From Pseudomonadota bacterium (GTDB lineage: Bacteria; Pseudomonadota; Gammaproteobacteria; Burkholderiales; Burkholderiaceae_C): a stretch of 64,000 bases of DNA. Both the position numbers and the translations under genes were made by a program. Positions 3,858 to 34,576 of this stretch are shown here, piece by piece (position 1 is the stretch's first letter; each line of letters begins with the position of its first letter). The notes below the pieces were generated by a model. That model was not told where the DNA came from, searched no databases, and worked only from the letters and a program-made list of their open reading frames with translations. The DNA lies in contig CAUJHV010000003.1 of the NCBI GenBank assembly GCA_963205115.1, positions 62,001 to 126,000 of the forward strand, read 5' to 3'.

Positions 3858-3869
3858 TGCACCAGCGTA
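3858..3869 (-). promoter_or_regulatory. Operator-like 12-mer (TACGCTGGTGCA on minus strand)
   Basis: On the minus strand this reads TACGCTGGTGCA, 10 of 12 matches to the consensus TACGCTAGYGTA found in other promoters of the window. Just downstream on the minus strand is TTTATATACGAT, a plausible -10 region for the SBP gene starting at 3801. The site would thus overlap or abut the core promoter, as expected for a repressor. The binding protein is unknown. Confidence 0.5.
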
Positions 3870-3958
3870 CGAATAATGGAAAACACGGGGCGTCGCTGCG
3901 GTGAAAGCGGGCGGTTTTGGGTTGACCCCGGCGCCCGCCGGGCTGCACAATCGTTTCG

Positions 3959-3970
3959 TAAGGTAGTGAA
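3959..3970 (+). promoter_or_regulatory. Operator-like 12-mer (TAAGGTAGTGAA) with inverted TTCG/CGAA flanks
   Basis: The sequence has 9 of 12 matches to the shared consensus and is flanked by TTCG (3955-3958) and CGAA (3971-3974), which extends its dyad symmetry. It lies 58 bp before the ligase start at 4028 and downstream of a TTGACC hexamer at 3922. With the site at 3858-3869 it gives this divergent promoter two operator copies, one per direction. Confidence 0.42.
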
Positions 3971-4027
3971 CGAACTGTGCCCGGCGCGCCCCGCGCGACG
4001 AGGCGCGCGATTCCAGGAGACGATCTG

Positions 4028-5659
4028 ATGGGCACGACCGCTTTCGACCCCGCGGCCCACGCTGCGCGCATGCGCGCCGAGGGCTGGTGGAACGACCGCA
4101 CCACCGACGCGCTGATCGCCGAGGCCGCGCAGCGCTGGCCGCAGCGTGATGCGGTGGTCGCCTACCGCGCCGACCGGCCGGGAGCCGACCCCGTCAAACG
4201 CCTGAGCTTCGGCGAACTCGAGGGGCTCGTCGGCCGTGGCGCCGCGGCCTTGCGCGGCCTGGGTGTCGGTGCCGGTGACGTGGTCTCGGTGCAGTTGCCG
4301 AACTGGTGGGAATTTGTCGTCGTGGCGCTCGCGGCGCGGCGGCTGGGCGCCATCGTCAACCCGTTGATGCCGATCTTCCGCGAGCACGAGCTCAGCTACA
4401 TGCTGGCCTTCTGCGAGGCCAAGGTGCTGGTCGTGCCCCAGCAGTTCCGCGGCTTCGACCACGAGCAGATGGCCACCGCGCTGCAGGCGCGCTGCCCGAC
4501 GCTGCAGCATGTGCTGGTCGTGGGCGGCAGCGGCGACAACGAATTCGAGCGTGTGCTCTTCGGTGGCAGCGCGAGCGTGGCGCCTTCGCCGGCACAGCGC
4601 GCCGACACGCTGGGCGTGCTGATGTTCACCAGCGGCACCACGGGCGAGCCCAAGGGCGTGATGCACAGCGACAACACGTTGGTGGCCTGTGTGCGCGGGC
4701 TGGCCGGCCGCTTCGGACTGACCGATACCGACGTGCTGCTGGCCTGCTCGCCGCTGGGCCACATGACCGGCTACACGGCCGTGATGCTGCAGGGCCTGTG
4801 CCTGGGCTGCACCGTGGTTCTGCAGGATGTGTGGGAGGGTGCGCGCGGCGTCGCGATCATGTCCGCCGAGGGCGTCACGCACACGGCGACGGCGACGCCT
4901 TTCCTCGTCGACATCTGCGAGGCCGTGGCTGCTGGCGGCCCGAAGCCGGCCTTGCGCACCTTCCTGTGCGGCGGCGCGCCGATCCCGCCGGTGGTCGTGC
5001 AGCGCGCGTCGAAGGAACTCGGCCTGGACGTCTCCAGCCTGTGGGGCATGACCGAATCGCTGGGCAGCACGCTGACCGAGCCGGCGCGCGCGCACGAGAA
5101 GTCCTCGTCCACCGACGGCCGGCCATTGGACGGTACGCAGGTGAAGGTGGTCGGCTTCGACGGAAAGCCCTTGCCCACGGGCGAGACCGGACGCCTGATG
5201 GTGCGCGGCGCCCAGATGTTCATGGGCTACTTCAAGAAGCCGGAGATTCCGACCTTCGACGCCGACGGCTGGTTCGACACCGGCGACCTGGCTTACCTGG
5301 ACGCGGAGGGCTACATCCGCATCAACGGCCGCACGAAGGATGTGCTGATCCGCGGTGGCGAGAACGTGCCCGTGGCCGAGATCGAAAACGTGCTGCTGAA
5401 GCACCCGGCGATCAGCGGCACGGCGGTGGTCGGCATGCCCGATGCCCGGCTGGGTGAACGCGGCTGCGCCTTCGTCACCCTGCGGCCCGGACAGGCCTTC
5501 GATCTGGCCGCCCTGCAGGACTGGATGGCCGAGTGCAAGGTGGCCAAGCAGTACTGGCCCGAGCGTGTGGAAGTGGTGGGCGAACTGCCGCGCACGCCCA
5601 GCGGCAAGATCCAGAAGTTTGTGCTGCGTGAGAAGGCCAAGGCCTTCGCCCAGGCATGA
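4028..5659 (+). CDS. Acyl-CoA synthetase, cyclohexanecarboxylate-CoA ligase (AliA)-like
   Basis: The 543-residue AMP-forming ligase of the ANL superfamily activates a carboxylic acid to an acyl-CoA via an acyl-adenylate. The AMP P-loop MFTSGTTGEPKG lies near residues 199-210, the hinge GRTKDVLIRGGENV near 431, and the C-terminal catalytic lysine in PSGKIQK near 524. The stretches QLPNWWEF, NPLMPIFRE and FRGFDHEQMA resemble, from memory, cyclohexanecarboxylate-CoA ligases. I chose ATG 4028 because AGGAGA lies 8 nt upstream; an in-frame GTG at 3977 lacks an RBS. It leads a four-gene operon with two SDRs and an exporter/importer. The alicyclic substrate is a family-based inference. Confidence 0.85.
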   Translation: MGTTAFDPAAHAARMRAEGWWNDRTTDALIAEAAQRWPQRDAVVAYRADRPGADPVKRLSFGELEGLVGRGAAALRGLGVGAGDVVSVQLPNWWEFVVVALAARRLGAIVNPLMPIFREHELSYMLAFCEAKVLVVPQQFRGFDHEQMATALQARCPTLQHVLVVGGSGDNEFERVLFGGSASVAPSPAQRADTLGVLMFTSGTTGEPKGVMHSDNTLVACVRGLAGRFGLTDTDVLLACSPLGHMTGYTAVMLQGLCLGCTVVLQDVWEGARGVAIMSAEGVTHTATATPFLVDICEAVAAGGPKPALRTFLCGGAPIPPVVVQRASKELGLDVSSLWGMTESLGSTLTEPARAHEKSSSTDGRPLDGTQVKVVGFDGKPLPTGETGRLMVRGAQMFMGYFKKPEIPTFDADGWFDTGDLAYLDAEGYIRINGRTKDVLIRGGENVPVAEIENVLLKHPAISGTAVVGMPDARLGERGCAFVTLRPGQAFDLAALQDWMAECKVAKQYWPERVEVVGELPRTPSGKIQKFVLREKAKAFAQA

Positions 5660-6426
5660 CGGTACCTGCCCGCCGGCTCGAGGGCGTCGTCTGCGTGGTG
5701 ACCGGGGCCGCACGCGGCATCGGTGTGGCGATCGCCGAGCGGCTGGCGGCCGAGGGTGGACGGGTGGCCGCATGGGACGTGAGCGAACGGCGTCTGGACC
5801 CCACGGTCGCCGAGCTTCGCGCGCGCGGGCTCGATGTGCAGGGTTTCGTCTGCGACGTCGGCTCGCGCCAGGCCGTGACCGATGCGATGGCGCAGGTCGA
5901 GCAAGGCTTCGGCGCGCCGGTCGGCGTACTGGTCAACAACGCCGTATGGGCGCGTTTCGGCGCGCTGGCGGAGATCGACGACGAGGTGGTCGATCGCACG
6001 CTGGCCGTCGGCCTGAAGGCGCTGATGTGGACCACGCAGGCGGCGGCACCGCAGATGCGCCGGCGCGGCGGCGGCAGCATCGTCAATCTCAGTTCGGTCT
6101 CGGCGCTGCACCCGCAGGCCTCGTCCATCGTCTATGCCGCGATGAAGGGCGGCGTGCTCGGCCTCACGAAGGCGGCTGCGGTGGAACTCAGCCCGGACCG
6201 CATCCGCGTCAACGCCGTCATCCCCGGCATGGTGGGCACGCCGGCGTCCAAGGCGCAGTTCGACGCCGTCACGCTGGCCCAGCGTGAGGCAGCGATGCCG
6301 TTGGGCCGCTTCGGCGACCCGGCCGACATCGCCGGCGCCGTGGCCTTCCTCGCCAGTGAGGACGGCGCCTACGTGCAAGGCGCCGAACTCATCGTCGACG
6401 GCGGCTGGACGGTCGGTACGCGATGA
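5656..6426 (+). CDS. SDR-family NAD(P)-dependent oxidoreductase
   Basis: The 256-residue protein is a classical short-chain dehydrogenase. It has the cofactor motif TGAARGIG at residues 16-23, NNA near residue 95, a catalytic Ser in NLSSVSA and YAAMK at about 160-164, so the catalytic tetrad is intact. The C-terminal GAELIVDGGWTVG is typical. It overlaps the ligase stop by 4 bp (ATGA), implying coupled translation. In the alicyclic-acid pathway of Rhodopseudomonas an SDR (BadH type) oxidises a ring 2-hydroxyacyl-CoA, and this gene or its neighbour could do so here (inference). Confidence 0.9.
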   Translation: MTVPARRLEGVVCVVTGAARGIGVAIAERLAAEGGRVAAWDVSERRLDPTVAELRARGLDVQGFVCDVGSRQAVTDAMAQVEQGFGAPVGVLVNNAVWARFGALAEIDDEVVDRTLAVGLKALMWTTQAAAPQMRRRGGGSIVNLSSVSALHPQASSIVYAAMKGGVLGLTKAAAVELSPDRIRVNAVIPGMVGTPASKAQFDAVTLAQREAAMPLGRFGDPADIAGAVAFLASEDGAYVQGAELIVDGGWTVGTR

Positions 6427-6451
6427 ACGCACAGCCACAAAGGACACACGC

Positions 6452-7240
6452 TTGAACCGCATGCAGGGCAAACGCTGCGTCGTCACCGGCGGCGGCAGCG
6501 GCATCGGCCGCGCCAGCGCGCAACGATTCGCGGCCGAGGGCGGCCAAGTCTTGGTGGTCGGCCGCAGCGCAGGCAACATCGACGAGACAGTGGCGCTGAT
6601 CCGCGCCGCCGGCGGCATAGCCGAGGCCATGGTGGCCGACGCCACCGCCGAGGCCGACGTGAAGGCGGTGGTCGATCGCTGCGTCGCGGCTTTCGGCGGC
6701 ATCGACGTCTTCCTCGCCAATGCCGGTTCGCCGGGCACGAACGCGTCGATCTTCGAGCAGACGGTCGACGAATGGAACGAGGTCTGGCGCGACAACGCGC
6801 TCAGCAGCATGCTGGCCGTCAAGCACGCCGGCCAGCCGATGGTGGCGCAGAAAGGCGGATCGATCATCCTCGTGTCGTCGGCGGCCTCGCTGCGCGCCAA
6901 TGCCGGGGCCATCTCCTACAGTGCCAGCAAGGCGGCGGTGAACAGCCTGGCCCAGACGGCGGCCAACGCCTTTGCCGGCACCGGCGTGCGCGTCAACGCG
7001 ATCCTGCCGGGGCTGGTGGAAACGAAGATGACGCGCAAGGTCTTCGAGTACGCACGTGAACGCGGCAAGGAAGGCCGCATCGGCCATATGGTGCCGCTGC
7101 AGCGCGCCGGTCGACCGGAAGAGATTGCCGCGATGGCCACTTTCCTGGCCAGCGACGATGGCTCCTTCGTCACCGGCCAGTTGTACGCGGTGGACGGCGG
7201 CGTCAGCAGCACCCACCCGCACGGGAAGATCCCCGTGTGA
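6452..7240 (+). CDS. SDR-family NAD(P)-dependent oxidoreductase (TTG start)
   Basis: The 262-residue classical SDR has TGGGSGIG at residues 12-19, NAG near 90, Ser in LVSSAAS and YSASK at about 156-160. It ends with GQLYAVDGGVSS. I chose the TTG at 6452 because AAGGA lies about 8 nt upstream; the in-frame ATG at 6461 would leave the RBS 17 nt away. It is third in the operon after the ligase and the first SDR, and overlaps the next gene. It differs clearly in sequence from the upstream SDR, so the two probably act on different hydroxyacyl-CoA or alcohol intermediates. Confidence 0.88.
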   Translation: MNRMQGKRCVVTGGGSGIGRASAQRFAAEGGQVLVVGRSAGNIDETVALIRAAGGIAEAMVADATAEADVKAVVDRCVAAFGGIDVFLANAGSPGTNASIFEQTVDEWNEVWRDNALSSMLAVKHAGQPMVAQKGGSIILVSSAASLRANAGAISYSASKAAVNSLAQTAANAFAGTGVRVNAILPGLVETKMTRKVFEYARERGKEGRIGHMVPLQRAGRPEEIAAMATFLASDDGSFVTGQLYAVDGGVSSTHPHGKIPV

Positions 7241-8151
7241 GCGACGGCCGCGCCGTGCAGCGCCGCGCGCTCGGCGCCAGCCTCTTCCTGGTGCTGCTGT
7301 GGGGCGCGTCGTTCACGATCCAAAAGGCCGCGTATGCGGCGATCGGGCCCGGCGGCTTCCTGTTCGGCCGCTCGGCGGTGATGTCGCTGTGTGCCATCCT
7401 GCTGCTGCTGTGGCGCCGCAGCCCTTTGTGGCCGCGCCTGGCGGCCGGCGAGTGGCCGGTGCTGCTGCGCTGCACGCTGACCGGCCCGGTGCTGCACATC
7501 CTGCTCATCACCTACGGCATCCACTGGTCCACGCCGTTCTCCGGTGCCTTGATCATGGCCTGCGGGCCGGTCTTCACCCTGCTGATGCTGCGCCTGCTGC
7601 GCGGCACGCGGCTGCAGCGCCACCAGGTCGTCGGCGTGGCGGCGGCTTTCTGCGGCGTGCTGCTCTTCATGAGCCAGAAGCTGCTGGCCGCCGACCTGCG
7701 TGCCAGCGGCGGCGACTTGATGATGCTGGGCGCGACCATCGTCTTCTCGCTCTACACGATCGGGGTCACTCCACTGGTCGAGCGCCACGGCGGTGCCGAG
7801 GTGATGGGCTGGGCCACGCTGCTGGCCGCCCCGTTCATCCTCGTGCTGACCACCCCCGCCATGCTGCAGGCGCCGTATGGCGCACTCGAACCGGCGATCT
7901 GGACGGCGTTCTTATGGACCGTGATCGTCTCGGGTTTCGTCGGCTGGATCCTGTGGGCCTGGGTCAATGCCGTGCGCGGTGTGGCGCGCACGGCGCCGCT
8001 GCTGTACCTGGTGCCGCCGGTGGCCGGCGTGATCGCCTGGCTCACGGTCGGCGAGGCCTACACCGGCGTCAAGCTGCTCGGCGCCGCGCTTGCGCTGGCC
8101 GGCGTGGCGTGGACGCAGTTCGCGCCGGCGCCCTCTGCGCAGCCCGCCTGA
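7237..8151 (+). CDS. EamA/DMT-superfamily membrane transporter
   Basis: The 304-residue protein is made almost wholly of hydrophobic helices (about ten) with short charged loops and shows the two-repeat layout of the drug/metabolite transporter superfamily. The N-terminal LFLVLLWGASFTIQKAAYAA and second-repeat WILWAWVNAVRGVARTAPLL are typical. Translation starts at GTG 7237, whose GTGA overlaps the preceding stop. As the last gene of a CoA-ligase/SDR operon it may export a pathway intermediate or import a related solute; direction and substrate cannot be inferred. Confidence 0.85.
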   Translation: MSDGRAVQRRALGASLFLVLLWGASFTIQKAAYAAIGPGGFLFGRSAVMSLCAILLLLWRRSPLWPRLAAGEWPVLLRCTLTGPVLHILLITYGIHWSTPFSGALIMACGPVFTLLMLRLLRGTRLQRHQVVGVAAAFCGVLLFMSQKLLAADLRASGGDLMMLGATIVFSLYTIGVTPLVERHGGAEVMGWATLLAAPFILVLTTPAMLQAPYGALEPAIWTAFLWTVIVSGFVGWILWAWVNAVRGVARTAPLLYLVPPVAGVIAWLTVGEAYTGVKLLGAALALAGVAWTQFAPAPSAQPA

Positions 8152-8166
8152 ACCGGACATCTCCCA

Positions 8167-8195
8167 TTGACACCGATCGTACGCACGTGTACGGT
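8167..8195 (+). promoter_or_regulatory. Promoter with operator TACGCACGTGTA between -35 and -10
   Basis: A consensus -35 TTGACA (8167-8172) is followed after 17 bp by TACGGT (8190-8195) as a possible -10. The near-palindrome TACGCACGTGTA (8180-8191; 10 of 12 to the shared consensus, extended by matching outer C/G pairs) lies in the spacer and touches the -10, a standard position for repression. The site precedes the ACAD operon starting at 8258. Confidence 0.6.
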
Positions 8196-8257
8196 CAGTG
8201 AGCCATACCAATCGACCACCCGGGCGACCGGATCGCCCCGCCACAGGAGACTGCCCG

Positions 8258-9520
8258 ATGGACTTCCATCTGCCCGCCGAGATCACCGCCAAGCTGGCCG
8301 AACTCGACGCCTTCATCGACGCCGAGATCAAGCCGCTGGAGCGCGAGAACATCCAGTTCTTCGACCACCGCCGCGAAAACGCCCGCACCGACTGGGAAAA
8401 CGACGGCCGTCCGCGTGCCGAGTGGCGCGCGCTGATCAGCGAGATGGAGCGCCGCGCCGACAAGGCCGGTCACCTGCGCCTGGGTCTGCCCAAGAGCTGC
8501 GGTGGCCAGGCGGCATCGAACCTGATGATCGCCGCGATCCGCGAGCACCTGGCCGCCAAGGGCCTGGGCCTGCACAACGACCTGCAGGACGAGAGCTCCA
8601 TCGTCGGCAACTTCCCGATCATCCCGGTGCTCGACGCCTATGGCACGCCGGATCAGAAGCGCTACATCGAGGGCATGATCACCGGCAAGATGCACCTGAG
8701 CTTCGCGCTCACAGAGCCGGGTCACGGCAGCGACGCCACCTGGCTGGAAACCATTGGCACGCGCGCGACCGACGGCTCCGGCGACTGGATCCTCAACGGC
8801 ATGAAGCGCTGGAACAGCCAGGTCGCACGCGCACACGGCAACCTGGTCTTCGCGCGCACCTCGGGCAAGCCCGGCGATGCGAAGGGCATCACCGCCTTCA
8901 TCGTGCCGACCAACGCCGCCGGCCACACCGTGCTCTACAACCACTGGACATTCAACATGCCCAGCGACCATGCGGAGACGGAGCTGAAGGACGTGCGTGT
9001 GCCCGACAGCGCCATCCTGCACCAGGAAGGTGAAGGCCTGATGGTGGCGCAGCGCTTCGTGCACGAGAACCGCATCCGCCAGGCCGCGGCCAGCGCCGGC
9101 GCGGCGCGCTACTGCATCACCGAGGCCGCGAAATACGCGCGTTCGCGCATCGCCTTCGGCGAGCCGCTGTCGAAGAAGCAGGCGATCCAGTTCCCGCTGG
9201 TCGAGCTCTACGCCGAGTGCGAGATGGTGCGCAACTACATCTTCCGCACCGCCTGGCAGATGGACCACCAGGACCCGCTGGAGATCAGCGACATGGTCTC
9301 GATCTGCAACTTCCGCGCGAACCGCCTGTGCTGCGAGGCCGCCGACCGTGCGATGCAGACGCACGGCGGCATCGGCTACAGCCGCGCCATGCCTTTCGAG
9401 CACATCTATCGCCACCACCGCCGCTACCGCATCACCGAGGGATCGGAGGAGGTGCAGATGCGCCGCGTCGCGCAGTACCTGTTCGGCTTCGGCGGCAAGA
9501 AGGCGAACGCGAGCGCATGA
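8258..9520 (+). CDS. Acyl-CoA dehydrogenase family protein
   Basis: The 420-residue flavoprotein should introduce a 2,3-double bond in an acyl-CoA and pass electrons to ETF. ALTEPGHGSDATW is the FAD/substrate-loop region, ARSRIAFGEPLSKKQ the helix-G/H region, and QTHGGIGYSRAMPFEHIYR the C-terminal signature. The usual YEGT catalytic-base position reads TEGSEE, so a Glu is present. ATG 8258 is preceded by AGGAGA at 8245-8250. It leads the operon ACAD, APH-type kinase, nitroreductase, 3-hydroxyacyl-CoA dehydrogenase and AMACR. An ACAD next to an APH-fold kinase recalls human ACAD10/ACAD11, where both domains are in one chain. Confidence 0.88.
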   Translation: MDFHLPAEITAKLAELDAFIDAEIKPLERENIQFFDHRRENARTDWENDGRPRAEWRALISEMERRADKAGHLRLGLPKSCGGQAASNLMIAAIREHLAAKGLGLHNDLQDESSIVGNFPIIPVLDAYGTPDQKRYIEGMITGKMHLSFALTEPGHGSDATWLETIGTRATDGSGDWILNGMKRWNSQVARAHGNLVFARTSGKPGDAKGITAFIVPTNAAGHTVLYNHWTFNMPSDHAETELKDVRVPDSAILHQEGEGLMVAQRFVHENRIRQAAASAGAARYCITEAAKYARSRIAFGEPLSKKQAIQFPLVELYAECEMVRNYIFRTAWQMDHQDPLEISDMVSICNFRANRLCCEAADRAMQTHGGIGYSRAMPFEHIYRHHRRYRITEGSEEVQMRRVAQYLFGFGGKKANASA

Positions 9521-9620
9521 GCGGCACGTCGGCGTTGCGGGTCGTGCGCCGGGCCGCTCCCCAGCCGGTCCGAATCGTCACCGGGAATCGCTTGCGGTGC
9601 CCGGCGTGTGAGGCGTCCAC

Positions 9621-10655
9621 ATGACGCGGGACATCGACTTCGCTGTCCCTGTGCTGGACACCTACCTGCGCGACACGCTTGCGCTGGGTGCGGCGCCGCT
9701 CGAGGTGCGCCGCACCGAAGGCGGCATGTCCAACCCGACCTATTTCCTGGAGAAGGGCGACTGGCAGGCCGTGCTGCGCAAGCAACCGGGCGGCGTGGTC
9801 ATGCCGTCGGCGCATGCGATCGACCGCGAGTGGCGCGTGTTGACCGCGCTGCGTGGCACCGACGTGCCGGTGCCTGCGCCGCTGCACTATTGCGCCGACC
9901 GCGCGGTGCTCGGCACGCCGTTCTACCTGATGGAGAAACTCGACGGCCGCGTGTTTCATGCGTTCGCCACACCCGGTCTCCCGCGTGCCGAGCGCACGGC
10001 GTTGTACGAATCGATGGTGGCGACGATGGCCGCCATCCACCGGCTCGACATCGCCGCGCTGGGGCTGGCCGACTACGGCCGCCCCGGCAACTACTTCGCG
10101 CGCCAGTTGAAGCGCTGGTCGCAGCAGTGGACGGCGTTCCGTCACGGCGACGACGACAACCCGGCACTCGACCAGGTCGTCGCCTGGCTCGCCGAACGTG
10201 TGCCCGTCAGCGAACTGCAGACGCTGTGCCACGGCGACTTCCGCATCGGCAACGTGATGTTCCACGCCACCGAGCCGCGTGTCATCGGCGTGCTCGATTG
10301 GGAGCTCTCGACGCTGGGCCACCCGCTGGTCGACGTGGCCTTCAACAGCCAGGCCTGGCGCATGGCGCCCGACGAGAACGGCGGCCTGCTGGGTCTGCCG
10401 CTGGCCGAACTGGGCATACCCACCGAAGACGACTACCTCGAGCGCTATTACGCGCTGGCGGGGTCCACCGAACGCATGACCACTTTCCACCAGGTGTTTG
10501 CGATGTTTCGCGGTGCCGTCGGCAGCGCCGGTGTCGCCGTGCGCGGCGAGCAGGGCAATGGTTTCCTGCCGGACGCGGCGCGCATCGGCCGCCAGCTGGC
10601 TCGGGCCTACGCGCAGCGCGGCCTGGCACTGATCGACGCCAGGGGCGAGCGATGA
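9621..10655 (+). CDS. APH-fold phosphotransferase (ACAD10/11-kinase-like)
   Basis: The 344-residue protein has the aminoglycoside-phosphotransferase/choline-kinase fold. EGGMSNPTYFL near the N-terminus is the nucleotide loop, CHGDFRIGN near 203-211 the Brenner catalytic loop, and DWELSTLGHP near 227 the metal-binding motif; all catalytic residues appear intact. Such kinases beside ACAD genes resemble the kinase domain of ACAD10/11 and LvaA of Pseudomonas putida, which phosphorylates 4-hydroxyacyl-CoA before phosphate elimination. A resistance function is unlikely in this setting. It lies 100 bp after the ACAD and overlaps the nitroreductase start by 4 bp (ATGA). The hydroxyacyl-CoA kinase role is inference. 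Confidence 0.85.
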   Translation: MTRDIDFAVPVLDTYLRDTLALGAAPLEVRRTEGGMSNPTYFLEKGDWQAVLRKQPGGVVMPSAHAIDREWRVLTALRGTDVPVPAPLHYCADRAVLGTPFYLMEKLDGRVFHAFATPGLPRAERTALYESMVATMAAIHRLDIAALGLADYGRPGNYFARQLKRWSQQWTAFRHGDDDNPALDQVVAWLAERVPVSELQTLCHGDFRIGNVMFHATEPRVIGVLDWELSTLGHPLVDVAFNSQAWRMAPDENGGLLGLPLAELGIPTEDDYLERYYALAGSTERMTTFHQVFAMFRGAVGSAGVAVRGEQGNGFLPDAARIGRQLARAYAQRGLALIDARGER

Positions 10656-11314: not shown

Positions 11315-11316
11315 GC

Positions 11317-13746: not shown

Positions 13747-13758
13747 TACGCTAGCGTA
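13747..13758 (+). promoter_or_regulatory. Perfect palindromic operator TACGCTAGCGTA
   Basis: This 12-mer is its own reverse complement and, with outer ACC/GGT pairs, extends to a 20-bp imperfect dyad (13743-13762). It is the best copy of the shared motif. A CTGAAA hexamer at 13725 with a 16-bp spacer would place a -10 at the operator. It lies 62 bp before the ACAD start at 13809, in a 144-159 bp gap after the AMACR gene. Confidence 0.6.
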
Positions 13759-14975: not shown

Positions 14976-14991
14976 CGCCAGGAGGGCGGTG

Positions 14992-15864: not shown

Positions 15865-15869
15865 TACCG

Positions 15870-17491: not shown

Positions 17492-17502
17492 ACCCCCGCG
17501 CC

Positions 17503-18041: not shown

Positions 18042-18082
18042 TTGCACACGTTAGTCTTCCACCTATAAAGTACGCTAGTGAA
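18042..18082 (+). promoter_or_regulatory. Promoter (TTGCAC-16-TATAAA) with operator TACGCTAGTGAA at the start site
   Basis: TTGCAC (18042-18047), a 16-bp spacer and TATAAA (18064-18069) form a good sigma-70-type promoter. The shared operator TACGCTAGTGAA (18071-18082) begins one base after the -10, so it covers the expected start site. That position suits a repressor. It precedes the SBP gene at 18123 and should drive the importer/Rieske operon. Confidence 0.62.
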
Positions 18083-19325: not shown

Positions 19326-19347
19326 TCCACCGAAGGGGTTCTTCAGC

Positions 19348-24027: not shown

Positions 24028-24818
24028 CGGCCGGCGTATTCGACGGCCGCGTCGTCGCCATCACCGGTGCGGCACGCGGCATCGGCGAGGCACTCGGCCG
24101 TGCCTTCCTGGATCGTGGTGCGGCTATCGTCGCGCTGGACCGCCGCTGGGACGAGGGCGACGCCTGGGCGCGCACGCTGCGCGACGCCGGCGCCCTGATG
24201 CTCGGCGCCGACATCACGAACGACGCCGAACTCGATGCCGCGCACGATGCCACGCTGGCGCGCTTCGGCCGCATCGACGTGCTCGTCAACAATGCCGCGA
24301 TGCGCCAGCGCGATCTCTACCCGGTGGCCGGTGCCTGCGCCGTACTCGACACCGAAGACGCGCACTGGGAACGCATGTTTGCCGTCAACGTGGTCGGCAC
24401 GCTGAAGGTGACGCGGCGCTTCATCCGGCCGATGCTGGCGCAGCGCGCCGGCAGCGTCATCATGGTCAGCGCCAACGGCAGCCTCACGCACGCGGCCGGA
24501 ATGGGCGTGGCCACCGGCAACCACCCGGGGCTGCTGAACCAGCCCTACGACGCCACGAAAGCCGCGCTCACCAGTCTGAGCTTCTATCTCGCCGAAGAGG
24601 TGAAGGCCGCAAACGTGGCCGTGAACGTGATCTTCCCGGGCCCCACGCGCACGACCGGCAGCGACGAGCTGGTGCCCGGCCGCGAGGCGCTGGGCCTGAA
24701 GATGGCGCTGCTGCCGCCGGCGCACGTGGTGCCGCTGTGCCTGCAGCTGGCGCAGGCCGATTCGGCCAGCAGTGGCCGGGCCTACGACGTCGTGCCCTGG
24801 AATGCGGTCCACGCCTGA
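24024..24818 (+). CDS. SDR-family oxidoreductase
   Basis: The 264-residue SDR has TGAARGIG near residues 14-21, NNAAM near 90, a Ser in MVSANGS and YDATK near 175, so it should be active. It overlaps the Rieske gene by ATGA, implying that it oxidises the Rieske product (for example a diol or alcohol) or acts just after it. The insertion after the Ser region (THAAGMGVATGNHPGLLNQP) is longer than usual and probably shapes the substrate pocket. It is the last gene of the operon and faces a convergent gene 54 bp away. Confidence 0.88.
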   Translation: MTAGVFDGRVVAITGAARGIGEALGRAFLDRGAAIVALDRRWDEGDAWARTLRDAGALMLGADITNDAELDAAHDATLARFGRIDVLVNNAAMRQRDLYPVAGACAVLDTEDAHWERMFAVNVVGTLKVTRRFIRPMLAQRAGSVIMVSANGSLTHAAGMGVATGNHPGLLNQPYDATKAALTSLSFYLAEEVKAANVAVNVIFPGPTRTTGSDELVPGREALGLKMALLPPAHVVPLCLQLAQADSASSGRAYDVVPWNAVHA

Positions 24819-24822: not shown

Positions 24823-24857
24823 GCGGCCGCCGTCAACCCGCTCGGCCGGACGGCCGC
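24823..24857. terminator. Possible bidirectional terminator hairpin between convergent genes
   Basis: GCGGCCG (24823-24829) and CGGCCGC (24851-24857) are complementary 7-bp arms with a 21-nt loop, in the 54-bp gap between two converging genes. There is no T-tract, so this is a weak call. Confidence 0.25.
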
Positions 24858-24872
24858 AGCCGCCTCGCCGCG

Positions 24873-25982
24873 TCAGATGGGCGGGTGGGCCTGCACCGAG
24901 GCGTACTTCGCATAGCCGCTGCCGACACCGTATTCGATGATGCCGTAGCCGATTTCATCGCCGTCGCGCACCTCGATCACCTGGTCGGCCAGCGTGCGCA
25001 CGGTCTTGCGCACCGCGGGATCGGTGAGGTCCCAGGTCTCGTGGGCCGTGAACAGCTTGCCCTTGTCGTCACCGTGGAACCAGCCGTTCAGGCCGCCGTA
25101 GAGGCCACCCTTCAGGAAGTAGCGCGTGGGCAGCACGCGCACCTGCACCGGCCGCTGCTCGCCGCTGGCGAAGGTCAGGTTGAAAGTAGCGGCGGCCATG
25201 CTCTGGCCGTGCGGGTCGTCGTGCCAGGACACGTCGTGCTGCACGGTGACGAGCTGGTCGCGGCCTGAAGCCCGCTGGCCCGCGGGCCGCACCCGCTCGC
25301 CGCTGATGTAGATCAGGTCGCCCGGCGCGCGCTCCTTGAAGAAGATCACCAGGCCGTGGTCCTTGAACTGCGCCGTGGTCCAGCAGTAGAAGAAGGGCGG
25401 GTAGAAGGTCAGCGGCGGGTGGCTCTCGTCGGTGCGCATTTCCGCGCGCACGCCCCAGCTGTGGTCGCGCTGGCCGAGGAAGCCGGCCAGGTCGATGCGC
25501 CGGCCGTCGTACTCGAGCCATCCGGTGTAGCGGCCCATCTGCTGCGCGCGGTACATGTGCTCGGTGATGCGGCCCTCGCGCCGGCGCAGGTGGCCGGCTT
25601 CTTCGTGCGGGTTCATCGTGGCGTGGAACTCGATCTCGAAGCGCAGCCCGGAGTCGTTTTCGCCCAGCACCAGGCGGTGGTGCTTGAGGCCTTCGATCAC
25701 CGTGATGGACAAGGGGCCGACCGCGGTCTTCAGCGGGTCGGGCCGCAGGCGGCGCGAGGCGCGGAAGTTCCACTGCCGCCCCGGCACCGCCACGCCGGCG
25801 AAGACGTCCATCACATTGCGGTTCGGGTGGTAGCCCAGGCCGATGTCGAAGATCAGCTCGCCGCCCGGCACCGGGTGGCCGGTGTACCACAGGCGTTCCA
25901 TCCAGGCCGGGTCGCTGTTGTCGATCTGGTCGAAGGGGGTCGGCAGCTGGTGGCCGATCAGGTCGTCCTGCGGGCTGAGCAT
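24873..25982 (-). CDS. CrtC/AttH-like (lipocalin-fold hydratase-type) protein of unknown function
   Basis: The 369-residue protein has no signal peptide or membrane helix. It has FDIGLGYHPNRNVMDVFAG in the N-terminal half and the block GQRDHSWGVR near the middle, the kind of DxSWG motif seen in carotenoid 1,2-hydratase (CrtC)/AttH-like beta-barrel proteins. A hydratase or lipid-binding role on an isoprenoid-like substrate is possible but not shown. It starts at ATG 25982; further upstream codons would enter the divergent operator. It is monocistronic and divergent from the ECH operon with operator F between them, so it is probably co-regulated with the regulon. Confidence 0.8.
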   Translation of the reverse strand: MLSPQDDLIGHQLPTPFDQIDNSDPAWMERLWYTGHPVPGGELIFDIGLGYHPNRNVMDVFAGVAVPGRQWNFRASRRLRPDPLKTAVGPLSITVIEGLKHHRLVLGENDSGLRFEIEFHATMNPHEEAGHLRRREGRITEHMYRAQQMGRYTGWLEYDGRRIDLAGFLGQRDHSWGVRAEMRTDESHPPLTFYPPFFYCWTTAQFKDHGLVIFFKERAPGDLIYISGERVRPAGQRASGRDQLVTVQHDVSWHDDPHGQSMAAATFNLTFASGEQRPVQVRVLPTRYFLKGGLYGGLNGWFHGDDKGKLFTAHETWDLTDPAVRKTVRTLADQVIEVRDGDEIGYGIIEYGVGSGYAKYASVQAHPPI

Positions 25983-25999
25983 CGTGGTGCGGTCTCGGG

Positions 26000-26033
26000 T
26001 TGACGCTGAGGTCGTAACTAGTACGGTAGTGTA
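26000..26033 (+). promoter_or_regulatory. Promoter with operator TACGGTAGTGTA between divergent genes
   Basis: TTGACG (26000-26005), a 16-bp spacer and TACGGT (26022-26027) form a weak promoter for the ECH operon. The operator TACGGTAGTGTA (26022-26033; 11 of 12 to the shared consensus, with outer G/C pair) overlaps this -10. It lies in the 88-bp gap between the CrtC-like gene (start 25982) and the ECH gene (start 26071) and can control both. Confidence 0.58.
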
Positions 26034-26070
26034 CAGTCGGCACGAAAGACTTCCATCGGAGACTTCCCGC

Positions 26071-26859
26071 ATGAGCACCGATTCGATCCGTGTCGAGCGC
26101 GACGGCGCACTGGCCATCGTGAGCCTCGCGCAGGCCGCGCGCGGCAACCCGTTCGACGGCAGCTTCACGAAGGCATTCAAGGACGTCGCGGCCGATCTCT
26201 GGAACGCCACCGACCTGCGCGCAGTGCTGCTGCGCGCCGAAGGCCCCAACTTCAGCGTCGGCGGCGACCTGAAGAGCTTCTACCCGGTGCGCCACGAACT
26301 GGGCCCGCTGGTGCGCCAGTGGACGGCCGACCTGCACATGGGCCTGCAGCGCTTCTGGGGCCTGCCGGTGCCGGTGGTCTGCGCGGTGCAGGGCTTCGCG
26401 ATGGGCGGCGGCGTCGCGCTGCTGGCGGGCGCCGACGTGGTGCTGGCCGCCGAGGGCGCGAAATTCGGCTCGGCCTTTGCGCAGCTGGGTTTCAGCTGCG
26501 ACTCCGGATCCAGCGCCACGCTGACGGCGCGCATGGGCGCGGCACGCGCGCGCCGCTTCGTGATGCTGGCCGAGATGCTCGGCGCATCCGAGGCGCTGGC
26601 TGCCGGCCTGGCTGACCGCGTCGTGCCCGACGCGCAGCTGCAGGACGACGCACTCGTGCTCGCCCGCCAGATGGCCGCTGGCCCGACGCTGGCCTACGGC
26701 GAGATCAAGCGCCTCTTCATGAAGGCCGGCGCGGCGCAGCTGCAGGCGCAGCTGGAAGACGAAGCGCTGACGCTGGCGCGCGTCTCCGCGGGCCACGACG
26801 CGCAAGAGGGCATCGCGGCGCTGGTCGAAAAGCGCAAGCCGGTGTTCCAGGGCCGCTGA
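26071..26859 (+). CDS. Enoyl-CoA hydratase/isomerase-family protein lacking both hydratase glutamates
   Basis: The 262-residue crotonase-fold protein has the oxyanion-hole segments FSVGGDLKSF near 65 and GFAMGGGVALLAGADVV near 110. The two catalytic Glu of hydratases are absent: the first reads GGGVAL and the second FGSAFAQLG. An Asp in CDSGSSATL, where isomerases have PDSGG, is present, so it may be a Delta3-Delta2-enoyl-CoA isomerase or another crotonase-type enzyme. CGGAGA (26058-26063) precedes ATG 26071. It leads the operon with a second ECH and a thioesterase. Confidence 0.83.
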   Translation: MSTDSIRVERDGALAIVSLAQAARGNPFDGSFTKAFKDVAADLWNATDLRAVLLRAEGPNFSVGGDLKSFYPVRHELGPLVRQWTADLHMGLQRFWGLPVPVVCAVQGFAMGGGVALLAGADVVLAAEGAKFGSAFAQLGFSCDSGSSATLTARMGAARARRFVMLAEMLGASEALAAGLADRVVPDAQLQDDALVLARQMAAGPTLAYGEIKRLFMKAGAAQLQAQLEDEALTLARVSAGHDAQEGIAALVEKRKPVFQGR

Positions 26860-26868
26860 TCCGCCGCC

Positions 26869-27630
26869 ATGGAACCGTACGACCACCTGCTCGTCGAGTG
26901 CCATGTCGACGGCTTCGCCACCATCGTCTTCAACCGCCCGGCGAAGCTGAATACGCTGTCGATCGGACTGCGCCGCGAGCTGGGCCGCGCGGTCGAGGCC
27001 CTGGAGGCCGACCCCGCGATTCATGTGCTGATCCTCACGGGCAGCGGCCGCGCCTTCACCGCCGGCCTCGATCTCGATGAATGGGGCGCGGCTCCGGCCG
27101 CCGGTGCCTGGGAATACAACGCGGTGGCCGCGATCGAAGGCTTCAGCGGCCCGGTCATCGGCGCGATCAACGGGCTCGCCATCACCGGTGGCGTGGAGCT
27201 TGCGCTGGCCTGCGACCTGCTCATCGCCGCCAGCGACGCACGCTTTGCCGATACGCATGTCAAGGTGGGCTTGTTGCCGGGCTGGGGCGGCTCGGTGTGG
27301 ATGCAGCAGCGCATCGGCCCGCACCGCGCCAAGGAACTCGCGCTCACCGGCCGCTTCTTCAACGCACAGGAGGCGCTGGCCTGGGGCTTCGTCAACCGCG
27401 TCGTGGCGCCGGAGCATTTGCGTGCGGAGGCCGAAGCGCTCGCGCGTCAGATGCTGGCCCACCCGCCCGAAGGCCTGGTGGCTTACAAGCGGCTGCTGAA
27501 CGACGAGGCCGGCCTGCCGCTGGCGGCGGCGTTCCAGCTCGAAAGCGAACGTGCGCGCGCCGCCAACATCGTCGTCACGCGTGAAGAGATCGACGCCCGG
27601 CTGGCCCGGCTGCGTCGCCAACGACCATGA
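26869..27630 (+). CDS. Enoyl-CoA hydratase/isomerase-family protein
   Basis: The 253-residue crotonase-fold protein has TAGLDLDEWG near 65 and GLAITGGVELALACDLL near 105. The first hydratase Glu is kept (GGVEL), but the second is His (DTHVKVGLLPGWGG). Hydratases usually need both, so the activity may be a modified hydration, a retro-Claisen step or isomerisation. The same His replacement occurs in the ECH at 33764. It lies 9 bp after the first ECH and overlaps the thioesterase by 4 bp. Confidence 0.85.
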   Translation: MEPYDHLLVECHVDGFATIVFNRPAKLNTLSIGLRRELGRAVEALEADPAIHVLILTGSGRAFTAGLDLDEWGAAPAAGAWEYNAVAAIEGFSGPVIGAINGLAITGGVELALACDLLIAASDARFADTHVKVGLLPGWGGSVWMQQRIGPHRAKELALTGRFFNAQEALAWGFVNRVVAPEHLRAEAEALARQMLAHPPEGLVAYKRLLNDEAGLPLAAAFQLESERARAANIVVTREEIDARLARLRRQRP

Positions 27631-28520
27631 CCCCGCATCCCATCCCCGCCTGGGACGGCCGCGACCTGCGCGACCTGCTCGCGCTGGACGAAATCGCGCC
27701 TTCCACGTTCCGCACACGCTGCGGCGACGCCAATGCACACGGCCGCGCCTACGGCGGCCAGATCCTCGCGCAGGCATTGATCGCCGCGGCACGCACCGTG
27801 CCGGCAGGCCGTCCCTGCACGGCGATGCAGTTCATGTTCCTGCAGGGCACCCTGTGGGACGAGGCACTGGACCTGCACGTCACGGCGCTTCAGGACGGCA
27901 AGCGCTTCTCCACGCGCCATGTGCGTGGCGTGCAGGCCGGCGGCCGCCTCGTGCTGGATGCGCAGATCAGCTTCGCGGTGTCCATCGATGCGCCGGGCCA
28001 CGGCGCGCCACCTCGCGTGGTGCTCGAAGACCCGGCCTCGCTGCCCACGGTCGACCAGCTGCCGGCCGACTGGTCGGCCGCGGTCGAGCGATCGGTCGGC
28101 TACCCGTTTGCGGTGAAAGAGAGCATCGACTTCCGCTTCGCCGGACCCCCGCCGCAGCTGCGGCTGGAATTGCCCGAGCCACGTCTGCGTTTCTGGCTGC
28201 GGTCGAAAGTGCCGCTGGTCGACGACCCGCACCTGCACGCCGCCGCCTTCGCCTACCTGTCGGACTGGTGGCTCAACTTCCCGGGCGTCGGCGGCCATCA
28301 GGACGAGGCGCAGGCCAGCGGCGGCTTGTATGTGGCGAGTCTGAACCATGCGATCTGGTTTCACCGCCCGCTGCGCGCCGACGAGTGGCTGCACGTCGAC
28401 AGCACCAGCCCGGCGGCCGCGTCAGGGCGCGGCCTGTCGATCGCACGCGTGCATAACCGCCAAGGTCAGCTGCTGGCCAGTGCCTCGCAGGAGTGCCTGA
28501 TGGCACCGCGCGAGCGCTGA
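27627..28520 (+). CDS. tesB: Acyl-CoA thioesterase II (TesB family)
   Basis: The 297-residue protein is a double-hotdog thioesterase with an N-terminal AYGGQILAQALIAA segment and FMFLQGT near residue 70. The C-terminal hotdog has LNHAIWFHRPLRADEWLHVDSTSPAAASGRGL, which matches TesB. It releases free acid and CoA and may prevent CoA sequestration by dead-end intermediates. It is last in the ECH operon (ATGA overlap) and converges on the orphan SBP gene across a hairpin. Confidence 0.88.
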   Translation: MTPHPIPAWDGRDLRDLLALDEIAPSTFRTRCGDANAHGRAYGGQILAQALIAAARTVPAGRPCTAMQFMFLQGTLWDEALDLHVTALQDGKRFSTRHVRGVQAGGRLVLDAQISFAVSIDAPGHGAPPRVVLEDPASLPTVDQLPADWSAAVERSVGYPFAVKESIDFRFAGPPPQLRLELPEPRLRFWLRSKVPLVDDPHLHAAAFAYLSDWWLNFPGVGGHQDEAQASGGLYVASLNHAIWFHRPLRADEWLHVDSTSPAAASGRGLSIARVHNRQGQLLASASQECLMAPRER

Positions 28521-28589
28521 TGCTGCGCGCACGACGCCGGAAGGCATGGCGCGGCTGCCGCCAGCGAGAGCGCGTTCTCACGCAGGCCC

Positions 28590-28609
28590 GCTGACGCACC
28601 CGCGTCAGC
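28590..28609. terminator. Hairpin terminator between convergent operons
   Basis: GCTGACGC (28590-28597) and GCGTCAGC (28602-28609) form a perfect 8-bp stem with an ACCC loop in the 89-bp gap between the thioesterase stop and the SBP stop. No T-tract follows on either strand, so termination strength is uncertain. Confidence 0.42.
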
Positions 28610-29794
28610 TCACATCTTGCATTCGGGGCTGGGCGGCATCGTCGTGCGCGCAGCCGGCTCCACGCTGCGCAGCGCCATCTCGCCCTTGCCGGGCGCTGCC
28701 TTCACGGCCTGCACCACCACCATCGGCCGCACCAGCTGATGGTCGGCGGCACGCATCTCGATGTCGCCGACGATGGTGTTGGCGAGTTTGAGGCCCTTGA
28801 GCGCGCCGCGCACGGCCGCCACGTCGGTGGACTTCGCTTTCGTGATGGCCTCGTGCACCAGCATGAAGGCGAGGTAGGCGTCGGCCGCCAGGTAGCTGGG
28901 CTTGCGGTTGAAGCGCGCCTCGAAGGCTTTCACGAACTCGGCGTTTGCCGTGCCGGGCAGGGTGGCGAAATAGCTCTGCGCCGACCACACGCCGACCGTG
29001 CTGTCGCCCTGGCCGGTGATCAGGATCTCGTTGACCATCGACGCGCTCAGCACGAGCTTGTACTTCTCGAAGAGCCCGAACTGCGCCTGCTGCTTGGCCA
29101 GACCCACGCCGGTAGCGCCGGGCATGTACATCACCAGCGCATCGGCGGGCTTGCCCAGCAGCTGAGCGATGTTGCTGCCGTGGTCCGTGGTGGACAGCGG
29201 CGTGTAGAGCTCCTTGCCGATGCTCCCGCCGAAGGCGGGCAGCGCAGCGGTCAGGTATTTGCTGGCATTTCGTGCGGCGGCCATGTCGGCCATCAACATG
29301 TCGATGGTCTTGATGCCGTTGCGTTGCGCCAGCTCGCGCCAGACCTGCACCTGGCTCCCATCGCTGATGCCGATGCGGAAATAGTTCGGGTTGCAGTTCT
29401 TGCCGGTGAGGTCGTCCGACGCTGCAGTCGCGTCGAGGAACAGCGCATTGAGTTCGCCCAGCTTCGCACTCACCGCCAGCGAATTGCCCGAAGGACTCAG
29501 GCTGGTGAAGAACGAGACGCCCTGCTGCTGAACCAGCTTGTTGGCCGCGGCGATGGCTCCTGCCGGCGGGCCGTCGTGGTTCTGGATCACGAGCTCGTAC
29601 TTGCGGCCCAGCGCGCCGCCCTTGGCGTTCAGCGTCTCCACGGCCATCGTCGTGCCTTCGTTGATGGCGCTGGAGAACGGTACCAGCGGGCCGGCCTCGA
29701 TATTCAGCACGCCCAGCTTGATGGTCTGCTGCGCAAAGGCGGCGCCGTGCAGCGCCAGGGCGGCGGCCATTGCTGCGCGAAGGGTGGTCTTCAT
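28610..29794 (-). CDS. Orphan periplasmic substrate-binding protein of HAAT type (LivK-like)
   Basis: The 394-residue protein has a Sec-type leader (MKTTLRAAMAAALALHGAAFAQQ) and then IKLGVLNIEAGPLVPFS and ETLNAKGGALGRKYEL, as in type-I binding proteins. GAGGAGA precedes the start. No permease or ATPase gene adjoins it; it lies 22 bp after a CoA-ligase gene in a two-gene operon. It resembles the SBP at 18123 in layout, including a C-terminal PSPEC/NPEC-like Cys motif, so it may feed the importer encoded at 19348-22636. That sharing is inference. Confidence 0.88.
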   Translation of the reverse strand: MKTTLRAAMAAALALHGAAFAQQTIKLGVLNIEAGPLVPFSSAINEGTTMAVETLNAKGGALGRKYELVIQNHDGPPAGAIAAANKLVQQQGVSFFTSLSPSGNSLAVSAKLGELNALFLDATAASDDLTGKNCNPNYFRIGISDGSQVQVWRELAQRNGIKTIDMLMADMAAARNASKYLTAALPAFGGSIGKELYTPLSTTDHGSNIAQLLGKPADALVMYMPGATGVGLAKQQAQFGLFEKYKLVLSASMVNEILITGQGDSTVGVWSAQSYFATLPGTANAEFVKAFEARFNRKPSYLAADAYLAFMLVHEAITKAKSTDVAAVRGALKGLKLANTIVGDIEMRAADHQLVRPMVVVQAVKAAPGKGEMALRSVEPAARTTMPPSPECKM

Positions 29795-29816
29795 CGTCGT
29801 CTCCTCGGGTGGTTCT

Positions 29817-31376
29817 TCAGGCGATCTTGCGTGTGTGGCCGGCCCAGTGCGGGTCGCGCAGCACGTTCTTGCGCACTTTGCCCACGGGTGTCACTGGCAG
29901 CGGCTCGGCGCGGAATTCATAGCTGCGCGGCACCTTGTAGCCGCCGATGTGGGCACGGCAGTGGGCGTCGAGCTCGGCTTCGGTGACGCTCATGCCGTCG
30001 CGCGGCACGATGACGGCGTGCACGCTCTCGCCCCATTGCGCGCTGGGCACGCCGATGACGGCGGCCTCGCGCACGGCAGGGTGCAGGAACAGCACACGCT
30101 CGACCTCGATGGAGTAGACGTTTTCGCCACCGGTGACGATCATGTCCTTGATGCGGTCGGCCACGTAGAGGAAGCCGTCCTCGTCCATCGTGCCGGCGTC
30201 GCCGGTGTGCATCCAGCCGTCTTTCAGCACCGCGGCTGTCGCCTCGGGGTTGTTGAAGTAGCCGTTCATCAGCATGTCGCTGCGCACGACGATCTCGCCC
30301 AGCGTGTCCGGCGGCGCGGTGCTGCCGTCGGGCAAGACGATCTTCACCTCGTTGCCGAAGGCGGGCTGTCCGGCCGAGCGCAGGCGCCGGGCCTTCGGAC
30401 CGCTGGTGAGGTGGTCGCGCCAGCGCAGGATGGTCGCGAAGCCGCCGGTCTCGGTCATGCCGAAGACCTGGAAGAAGCGCCAGGTGGGCAACTTCTGCAT
30501 CGCCTGCGTGATCAGCGCCTCGGGCATCGGGCTGCCGCCGTAGACGCAGGTGCGCAGGCTGCTCAGGTCGTACTTGTCGAAGTCCGGGTGGTTCAGCAGC
30601 AGGTTGATCATCGTCGGCACGAGCACCGCGTTGGTCACCCGGTGCTCCTGGATCGTCTGCATCACCAGCACGGGGTCGAACTTGGGCAGCGGCAGGTGCG
30701 TGCCACCGGCCATCGTGATGTAGAGCAGCGCACTCGCGCCGGCAAAGTGGAAATAGCCGGCCACGTACGCAAAGCTCAGGTCTTCCACGTCGGGCAGCCA
30801 GGCCAGGTAGCCCATCGTCGCGACGTACAGGCCGCGGTGGCTCATCATCACGCCCTTGGGGTGGGCCGTGGTGCCGCCGGTATAAAAGATGACCCACAGG
30901 TCTTCGCCACGGCGGCCGGCGTCGGGCAAGGGGGTGGTCTGCGCCACCAGGGTCTCGTAATCGAGCATGCCCTCGGGGCAGGGGCCTTCGCCCATCCAGA
31001 CCAGCGTCTTCACCCACGCCAGCCGGGCCTTCAGCTCGAGCGCCTGATCGATGAAGCTGTCGTCGACGAACAGCACCGAGGCCTTCGAGTCGGTCAGCGC
31101 GTACACGTTCTCGGCCACCGACCAGCGGACGTTCAAGGGCGCGAAGGCCCCGCCGGCCCAGGGCACCGCGAAGAAGAGCTCGACGTAGCGATCGGAGTTC
31201 ATCGCCAGCGCGGCGACGAAGTTGCCGCCTTCGATGCCCAGGGCGCGCAAGGCGCCCGCCAGGCGTGGCACGCGCTGGCCCACCTCCTGCCAGGTGCGGC
31301 GCCGGCCGTTGCAGAGGGTGGCGGTGCGCTGGGGTTGGCAGGCGACAGCCTGGGTGAGAAAGCGGGTGCCTTGCAT
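29817..31376 (-). CDS. AMP-forming acyl-CoA synthetase
   Basis: The 519-residue ANL-superfamily ligase has the P-loop FYTGGTTAHPKGVMMSH near residue 170, FGMTETGG near 305, the hinge GDAGTMDEDGFLYVADR near 400 and VGKVRKN near the C-terminus with the catalytic Lys. It resembles medium/long-chain or aromatic acid-CoA ligases; specificity cannot be read. It starts at ATG 31376, divergent from the ACAD operon with two operator copies between. It probably activates the solute bound by the SBP encoded 22 bp downstream. Confidence 0.87.
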   Translation of the reverse strand: MQGTRFLTQAVACQPQRTATLCNGRRRTWQEVGQRVPRLAGALRALGIEGGNFVAALAMNSDRYVELFFAVPWAGGAFAPLNVRWSVAENVYALTDSKASVLFVDDSFIDQALELKARLAWVKTLVWMGEGPCPEGMLDYETLVAQTTPLPDAGRRGEDLWVIFYTGGTTAHPKGVMMSHRGLYVATMGYLAWLPDVEDLSFAYVAGYFHFAGASALLYITMAGGTHLPLPKFDPVLVMQTIQEHRVTNAVLVPTMINLLLNHPDFDKYDLSSLRTCVYGGSPMPEALITQAMQKLPTWRFFQVFGMTETGGFATILRWRDHLTSGPKARRLRSAGQPAFGNEVKIVLPDGSTAPPDTLGEIVVRSDMLMNGYFNNPEATAAVLKDGWMHTGDAGTMDEDGFLYVADRIKDMIVTGGENVYSIEVERVLFLHPAVREAAVIGVPSAQWGESVHAVIVPRDGMSVTEAELDAHCRAHIGGYKVPRSYEFRAEPLPVTPVGKVRKNVLRDPHWAGHTRKIA

Positions 31377-31405
31377 GGCGCGGGTCTCCGTGAGCGGGCA
31401 AGTCT

Positions 31406-31432
31406 TACACTAGCGCATGGTCAGCTGGTGCA
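31406..31432. promoter_or_regulatory. Tandem operator copies (TACACTAGCGCA and TCAGCTGGTGCA) in divergent promoter
   Basis: TACACTAGCGCA (31406-31417) matches the consensus at 10 of 12 positions. A second, weaker copy TCAGCTGGTGCA (31421-31432; 8 of 12) follows with a centre-to-centre distance of 15 bp. They lie in the 201-bp gap between the ligase gene (start 31376) and the ACAD gene (start 31578). Confidence 0.45.
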
Positions 31433-34573: not shown

Positions 34574-34576
34574 GCC

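Follow-up and report, generated by a model that had tools for sequence, protein, structure and literature searches.

Gene order and the recurrent motif

We analyzed a 64,000-nucleotide stretch of DNA from a bacterium of the Burkholderiaceae_C (Pseudomonadota; contig CAUJHV010000003.1 of assembly GCA_963205115.1, here C3) together with the DNA around it. This stretch, the window, covers C3:62001-126000 (window base 1 is C3:62001) of an assembly of 6,075,417 bases that is 89.74% complete; positions without a prefix are window positions. The window carries operons for importers, coenzyme A (CoA) ligases, acyl-CoA dehydrogenases (ACADs), kinases and hydratases, and a short palindromic motif recurs in the gaps between them. 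We read this motif as the operator of a MarR-family regulator, very probably the product of gene g57, which lies outside the window on the same contig.

A first-pass annotation of the window had pointed to a perfect palindrome at 13747 and to related copies ahead of several operons. The palindrome, TACGCTAGCGTA, is exact and occurs nowhere else in the 6.08-Mb assembly, and related copies lie where they had been placed. Allowing at most one mismatch, TACGCTAGYGTA matches five times in the window (0.07 expected), and with at most two mismatches 11 times (1.80 expected); 0 of 100 shuffles were as high in either case. At three mismatches the count is ordinary and uninformative (43 matches against 34 expected, with 15 of 100 shuffles as high). 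Hence, weaker copies required other evidence.

Across the genome, TACGCTAGTGTA with up to two mismatches is found at 24 distinct places (25 rows), 10 of them inside C3:36184-93417. This segment makes up less than 1% of the genome and includes all five of the places that differ at no more than one position. The reversed motif, used as a control pattern, is commoner than the motif itself (77 and 59 matches vs 13 and 12). The evidence therefore lies in position and clustering and not in the genome total.

To score single sites, genes on the 136-kb contig C3 were called with a codon-usage script (132 genes, 8.06% intergenic), and 11 sites, of which seven lie in the window and four upstream of it, were used to build a symmetric 16-bp matrix. 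These 11 sites lie in 10 intergenic regions. They are also the 11 top matches on the contig, at 16.4-21.8 bits (13.3-20.6 bits when left out of the matrix). The best coding match, at 7049, reaches 15.2 bits and the next coding match 12.5. Seven of the eight copies listed in the first-pass annotation (3858, 3959, 8180, 13747, 18071, 26022 and 31406) are among these sites and all are intergenic; the eighth, at 31421 (TCAGCTGGTGCA), scores 4.4 bits and was dropped. The extent of about 35 kb given there proved too small: with the four sites upstream the set spans 57 kb, and its first site lies 26 kb ahead of the window start.

The ideal motif is about 16-20 bp long, gTACRCTAGYGTAc with A/T-rich flanks. 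The sites are near-symmetric, that is, palindromic sites in target promoters, as expected for the MarR family. The letters of TACGCTAGCGTA and TACGCTAGTGTA have no match in the PMC literature, shorter or variant forms turn up in eight papers whose titles do not concern MarR control of catabolism, and no title on this regulon is among the matches listed there; most subscription journals lie outside this literature.

Conservation in related genomes

Because the 11 sites built the matrix, its independent test comes from other genomes. We scanned nine contig stretches of five relatives (G004, G016, G026, G106 and G109; G000 is the genome described here), whose contigs were partly fetched. With the G000 matrix and a threshold of 12 bits, there are 51 matches in 25.9 kb of intergenic DNA and six in 403 kb of coding DNA; with 14 bits the numbers are 47 and three. 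By comparison, 200 column-permuted matrices yield at 14 bits a mean of 0.32 intergenic (maximum 7) and 2.29 coding matches (maximum 45).

Every one of the 51 intergenic matches has a gene within 300 bp downstream, and 37 of them precede an orthologue (at least 60%) of a gene that has a site in G000. Orthologues of g77 and g89/g90 have a site in all five relatives, those of g45, g54 and g82 in four, those of g58, g72 and g94 in three, that of g55 in two, and those of g67/g68 and g38/g39 in one each. Two of the other 14 matches stand before paralogues of g57; several stand before orthologues of g52, g62/g69 or g56, island genes without a site directly upstream in G000.

The first-pass annotation had proposed one regulon with one operator and had named two outcomes that would speak against it: a motif as frequent in genes as in promoters, and a lack of conservation ahead of orthologous operons. 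Neither was seen on contig C3, in the five relatives or at the named loci described below. Coding DNA is almost free of the motif, and copies ahead of orthologous operons are conserved, which strongly supports the proposal.

The candidate regulator

From g38 (C3:34945) to g98 (window 35716), a Pfam scan of every called gene (61 in all) finds a single regulator-type gene, g57, although a too-short or odd regulator would escape the gene caller. This agrees with the earlier statement that none of the genes between the window sites encodes the regulator. The product of g57 matches PF12802 with 62.2 bits (cut-off 27) and PF01047 with 53.2 bits (cut-off 24.6), and is thus a MarR winged-helix protein.

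The gene and the motif occur together. At one mismatch or fewer, the motif occurs in 20 of the 81 genomes of the genus, and in six of them at three or more places (G000, G004, G016, G026, G106 and G109). A MarR orthologue of at least 83% is present in exactly those six; in the other 75 genomes the best match is at most 39%. When 60 of the 81 genomes had been searched, three genomes apart from G000 were known to have an orthologue, of 88-99% (G004, G016 and G026). The prediction that G106 and G109 would carry the gene as well was made before the full search, which confirmed it at 85% and 83%. All five fetched islands hold the orthologue (5/5). This co-occurrence suggests that the near-symmetric site is the cognate site of this MarR protein.

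MarR paralogues elsewhere in these genomes sit in other gene surroundings, and the site lies upstream of two of the three: one in G016 (C32, 69% identity, 18.6 bits) and one in G106 (C116, 74%, 14.2 bits). Two loci of Zavarzinia, an alphaproteobacterium, encode a MarR of 59% and carry sites of 18.6 and 19.8 bits ahead of the MarR gene. The target gene g54 offers another comparison. Where a MarR of at least 72% is the neighbour, all six copies come with a site of at least 17.7 bits (loci of 4.3-4.4 kb), whereas five g54 paralogues (48-50%) without such a MarR beside them reach at best 7.6 bits (loci of 3.2-4.4 kb); three of these five are in genomes without the MarR.

The association extends to named genomes, from which the best 80 of 232 relatives were kept; one of these genomes, Variovorax sp. 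OK212, encodes an orthologue of 88% (L136). With a MarR of at least 71%, 33 of 34 loci have an intergenic site of at least 14 bits (82 intergenic and five coding matches). Leaving out seven loci of genomes already used, the figures are 26 of 27 loci, with 61 intergenic and three coding matches.

A match was also found in 363 plasmid records, four of which were looked at. The plasmid of Azoarcus sp. KH32C (MarR 50%) has an intergenic site of 17.8 bits. That of Sphingopyxis macrogoltabida 203N (56%) has a similar annotated gene set, with a match of 11.7 bits in the equivalent gap between divergent genes. For Diaphorobacter HDW4B (59%, 13.0 bits) and Paraburkholderia PGU19 (58%, 15.5 bits) the best matches lie inside annotated genes. 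Two plasmids carry an annotated 3-oxoacyl-ACP synthase III C-terminal domain gene with an adjoining thiolase near a MarR gene. At greater distance, three of six MarR homologues (43-46%) have another CTAG-centred word near TAAGCTAGGCAACT upstream. The word or a near form of it stands before MarR homologues of 45-46% at loci L054 and L057 (both at 1458) and L058 (at 1395), in other families, and is possibly a diverged operator.

Promoter geometry and proposed mechanism

Several sites overlap or adjoin promoter elements. Site 8180 lies within the spacer 3' of TTGACA and touches TACGGT, site 26022 covers TACGGT at -10, and site 18071 comes after TATAAA. We pooled 168 promoter regions over species, which are not independent of each other, and found 25 TTGAC pentamers before or after the site. 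The pentamer lies about 11-45 bp before the site centre in 21 cases and after it in four, and none lies further upstream to about 67 bp. Where promoters are recognizable, the sites are thus on or just after them, which is the geometry of a repressor.

We consider it very likely that g57 binds the motif and acts as a repressor. A MarR dimer bound to a single operator would cover the promoter and obstruct RNA polymerase. Acting at all 11 sites of the 57-kb stretch, in 10 intergenic regions, MarR would silence two ABC importers, a number of CoA ligases, ACADs, kinase/dehydrogenase pairs and genes for thiolases and hydratases until an intermediate of the pathway releases it; the acyl-CoA thioester product of one of the ligases is the likeliest candidate. 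By analogy, we lean slightly toward a CoA thioester as the effector. According to the available excerpt of PMC5487221 (all papers are cited here from such excerpts), derepressing ligands are frequently early pathway intermediates, and CoA thioesters serve as a shared type of inducer among MarR proteins that govern the catabolism of lignin derivatives. CouR (PMC4737184) and BadR (PMC9795900) are cases of CoA-thioester control.

Weak autoregulation of g57 is plausible from its upstream DNA. Matches of at least 8 bits are found in the own upstream region of 19 of 33 MarR loci, compared with 23% of 519 other upstream regions of these loci. In 10 of the 33 loci a word of the form TGTAMRCWTCNTTAYW, 31-62 bp ahead of the MarR gene, is the best match in its upstream region, often at a low matrix score. 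There is also a recurrent half-degenerate variant, for example TGTACGCATCATTACA, 38 bp before MarR orthologues (such as L134, L145 and L159), which is perhaps a weak autoregulatory site.

Counter-evidence and alternative explanations

Several observations weigh against a regulon that is repressed by g57. Genome G035 has two near-exact matches near contig ends and one intergenic site of 15.7 bits, and has no MarR match at 1e-12. More generally, co-occurrence is confounded, as any island gene would show the same pattern. The comparisons of MarR paralogues and of g54 copies reduce this confounding, with few loci each, and they have exceptions of their own: the third paralogue (G016:C7, 51%) has no 12-bit site in its 17-kb stretch, and two of the five site-less g54 paralogues, in G109 and G016, are in genomes with the MarR elsewhere. 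Below 60% MarR identity, 13 of 46 loci in the same 80 of 232 relatives have a 14-bit intergenic site (16 intergenic matches, one coding). On contig C3, four of the 11 sites (3959, 8180, C3:36184 and C3:43519) fall below the 15.2 bits of the best coding match when left out, and therefore the weaker sites depend on conservation too. Strong matches called coding reach 19.3 bits in G016, 16.7 in G004, 15.0 in G109 and 15.2 on C3. As for geometry, most of the 168 promoter regions are without any TTGAC, and, since TANNNT is part of the site, a promoter test that scores the -10 box is to some degree circular. Finally, the promoter of g57 holds a weak copy of 9.0 bits; at 14 bits or more, own upstream matches are found in seven of 33 MarR loci and in 19% of 519 other upstream regions, which is no difference, and the main MarR gene of G106 (L158) scores -5.2 bits.

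What else could explain the motif? It might not be an operator at all but some repeat element or structural repeat, or a chance likeness to a promoter. The motif is partly similar to a -10 box, its three-mismatch count in the window is at chance level, and the reversed control is more frequent in the genome. Yet the window has many more near-exact copies than chance would give, and such copies are intergenic, clustered in one island of the genome and conserved ahead of orthologous genes, so we give this explanation hardly any credence. A different regulator binding the same motif is somewhat easier to imagine, though still very improbable. Candidates are the TetR gene at 56725, the LysR gene at 39324 or a regulator elsewhere in the genome, which has 20 TetR_N matches, and co-occurrence cannot fully part MarR from other island genes. 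Both window genes lie outside the site span, however. In the fetched islands the LysR orthologue is found in one of five and the TetR orthologue in none, compared with five of five for MarR, and two of three isolated MarR paralogues have the site. The first-pass annotation had seen no good site at the TetR gene, and rightly so: the best match in 400 bp upstream has 1.6 bits. It had also suggested TetR as the type of regulator. For the window's TetR we reject this, as it has neither an upstream site nor an orthologue in the fetched islands, and so lacks the marks of a TetR regulon; the conservation test covered this one of the 20 TetR_N matches.

The remaining alternative keeps both the operator and MarR and changes the sign: g57 could be an activator, or a dual regulator at some promoters. 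Some MarR proteins do activate (PMC4737184), four of the 25 TTGAC pentamers lie 3' of the site centre, and some sites are far from the downstream start (166 bp from C3:93406 to g95 and 164 bp from C3:65858 to g68). These far sites sit in divergent regions, however, and may serve the other gene, and where TTGAC is present the great majority of cases put the site on or just after the promoter. We think activation unlikely, but less so than a different regulator.

Comparison with known systems

MarR repressors of CoA-dependent catabolism are already well known as a kind of system. BadR of Rhodopseudomonas palustris and Aromatoleum sp. CIB (PMC9795900) is, like the system proposed here, a MarR-type repressor of a CoA-dependent carboxylate-degradation cluster with inverted-repeat operators in a divergent promoter region. 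Its effector is a CoA thioester of the pathway, a likeness that for g57 is drawn by analogy. The BadR operator CAAN4TTG, however, is found in none of the 10 site-bearing gaps (17 on the whole contig), which sets the two apart, and BadR has two operators in one intergenic region instead of 11 in ten.

CouR of Rhodococcus jostii RHA1 (PMC4737184) is similar in that a single inverted repeat lets one MarR protein govern several promoters. A pathway CoA thioester abolishes the binding of CouR, which again would extend to g57 by analogy. It differs in its operator, cATTGA-N5-TCAATg over predicted -35 boxes, and in having four promoters. CouR is also remote from g57 in sequence: a profile search gives 1.4e-9 for 6c28 (named CouR) and 1.1e-7 for 5cyv. 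The closest solved structure by sequence is the MarR protein SlyA (3q5f, 5.5e-19), which is also the best NCBIfam match. Still, g57 stays below the cut-offs of the SlyA equivalog NF002926 (71.6 bits, cut-off 120) and the HpaR equivalog TIGR02337 (50.1 bits, cut-off 121.2).

Another likeness concerns the putative target enzymes and not their regulation. In LvaA/LvaC and ACAD10/ACAD11 an APH-type kinase works alongside an acyl-CoA dehydrogenase, a pairing also seen in two of the target operons, and these enzymes act on 4-hydroxy acids in the breakdown of 4-hydroxyacyl-CoA (PMC12440821).

Proposed operators and their operons

The proposed operators, their surroundings and the candidate regulator gene are listed in the table.

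Table. Operator sites, adjoining operons and the MarR gene (window positions unless prefixed C3; bits in full matrix / when left out)
Feature	Position	Strand	Bits	Surroundings	Sites in relatives
Operator	3858..3869	-	17.0 / 15.3	Divergent: importer operon (2593-3801 and leftwards, -) / ligase/SDR operon (4028-8151, +)	Conserved in G026
Second operator, same region	3959..3970	+	16.4 / 13.3	As for 3858	Conserved in G026
Operator	8180..8191	+	17.0 / 14.7	Promoter position; downstream 8258-13649, ACAD/APH-kinase/nitroreductase-like/3HCDH/CoA-transferase	Upstream of orthologue: G016 17.0, G026 13.0, G106 12.2 bits; none in G109, G004
Operator, perfect palindrome	13747..13758	+	21.8 / 20.6	Downstream 13809-17949, second ACAD/SDR/phosphatase/APH-kinase operon	Orthologue sites in 5/5
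Operator	18071..18082	+	21.4 / 19.7	Downstream 18123-22636, second importer operon	Orthologue site in G016, G026, G106, G109
Operator	26022..26033	+	19.9 / 17.1	Divergent: gene 24873-25982 (-) / enoyl-CoA hydratase/thioesterase operon 26071-28520 (+)	Conserved in 5/5
Operator	31406..31417	-	18.6 / 17.1	Divergent: AMP-ligase/binding-protein operon 28610-31376 (-) / ACAD/TctC/hydratase/epoxide-hydrolase operon 31578-35716 (+)	Ligase-orthologue site in G016, G026, G109
Operator	C3:36184			Upstream of window	
Operator	C3:43519			Upstream of window	
Operator	C3:52309			Upstream of window	
Operator	C3:54959			Upstream of window	
g57, MarR family, 154 aa	C3:54443-54907	+		7.1-7.6 kb upstream of window	

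Operator 3959 lies about 60 bp ahead of the AMP-ligase gene at 4028. For operator 18071, the target gene is absent from the fetched G004 stretch. Transcription from 18071 possibly reads on into the Rieske and SDR genes at 22717-24818. The first-pass annotation had counted the Rieske operon among the targets. This would hold as read-through and not as direct control: none of the contig's 45 best matches falls in the 80-bp gap before the Rieske gene at 22717, and control could come solely from transcripts that run on out of the transporter operon beginning at 18123.

Some further features stand apart from these sites. A weak match of 11.2 bits at 46419 lies in the gap ahead of an operon starting at 46610. 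The gene at 17503-17949 (+) encodes 148 aa without a Pfam match and has a homologue in all five relatives' islands (5/5, 58-92% identity). At 35774-38017 (-) a protein of 747 aa consists of two tandem acyl-CoA-dehydrogenase units, the N- and C-terminal domains each being matched twice.

The putative target pathway and its meaning

Judged by their predicted functions, the targets (importers, CoA ligases, dehydrogenases, hydratases and thiolases) fit the breakdown of an imported carboxylic acid. Two modules combine an ACAD with an APH-type kinase, one at 8258-10655 and the other, together with a histidine phosphatase, at 13809-17491. By analogy they resemble the enzymes of 4-hydroxyacyl-CoA catabolism. 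Gene g54 (C3:50821-52248, -) joins an HMG-CoA-synthase-like half and a ChsH2 zinc-ribbon/OB-fold in one protein of 475 aa.

Taken together, we think it likely, with less confidence than we place in repression by g57, that g57 represents an undescribed MarR subfamily that can be traced by its operator TACRCTAGYGTA. The catabolic island of 57 kb and about 60 genes would then be under single control, and would encode an uncharacterised CoA-dependent degradation pathway with two kinase/ACAD modules and a fusion of an HMG-CoA-synthase-like protein with ChsH2.

One gene and one DNA word thereby link some ten promoter regions in a degradation island not studied so far. Hence, both the regulator and the list of pathway genes become testable. 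Since clusters of the operator co-occur with the MarR gene within the genus, they can be used to find genes of the pathway in other bacteria. If the proposal is true, the operator could assign unknown genes to this pathway across the Burkholderiales and some Alphaproteobacteria.

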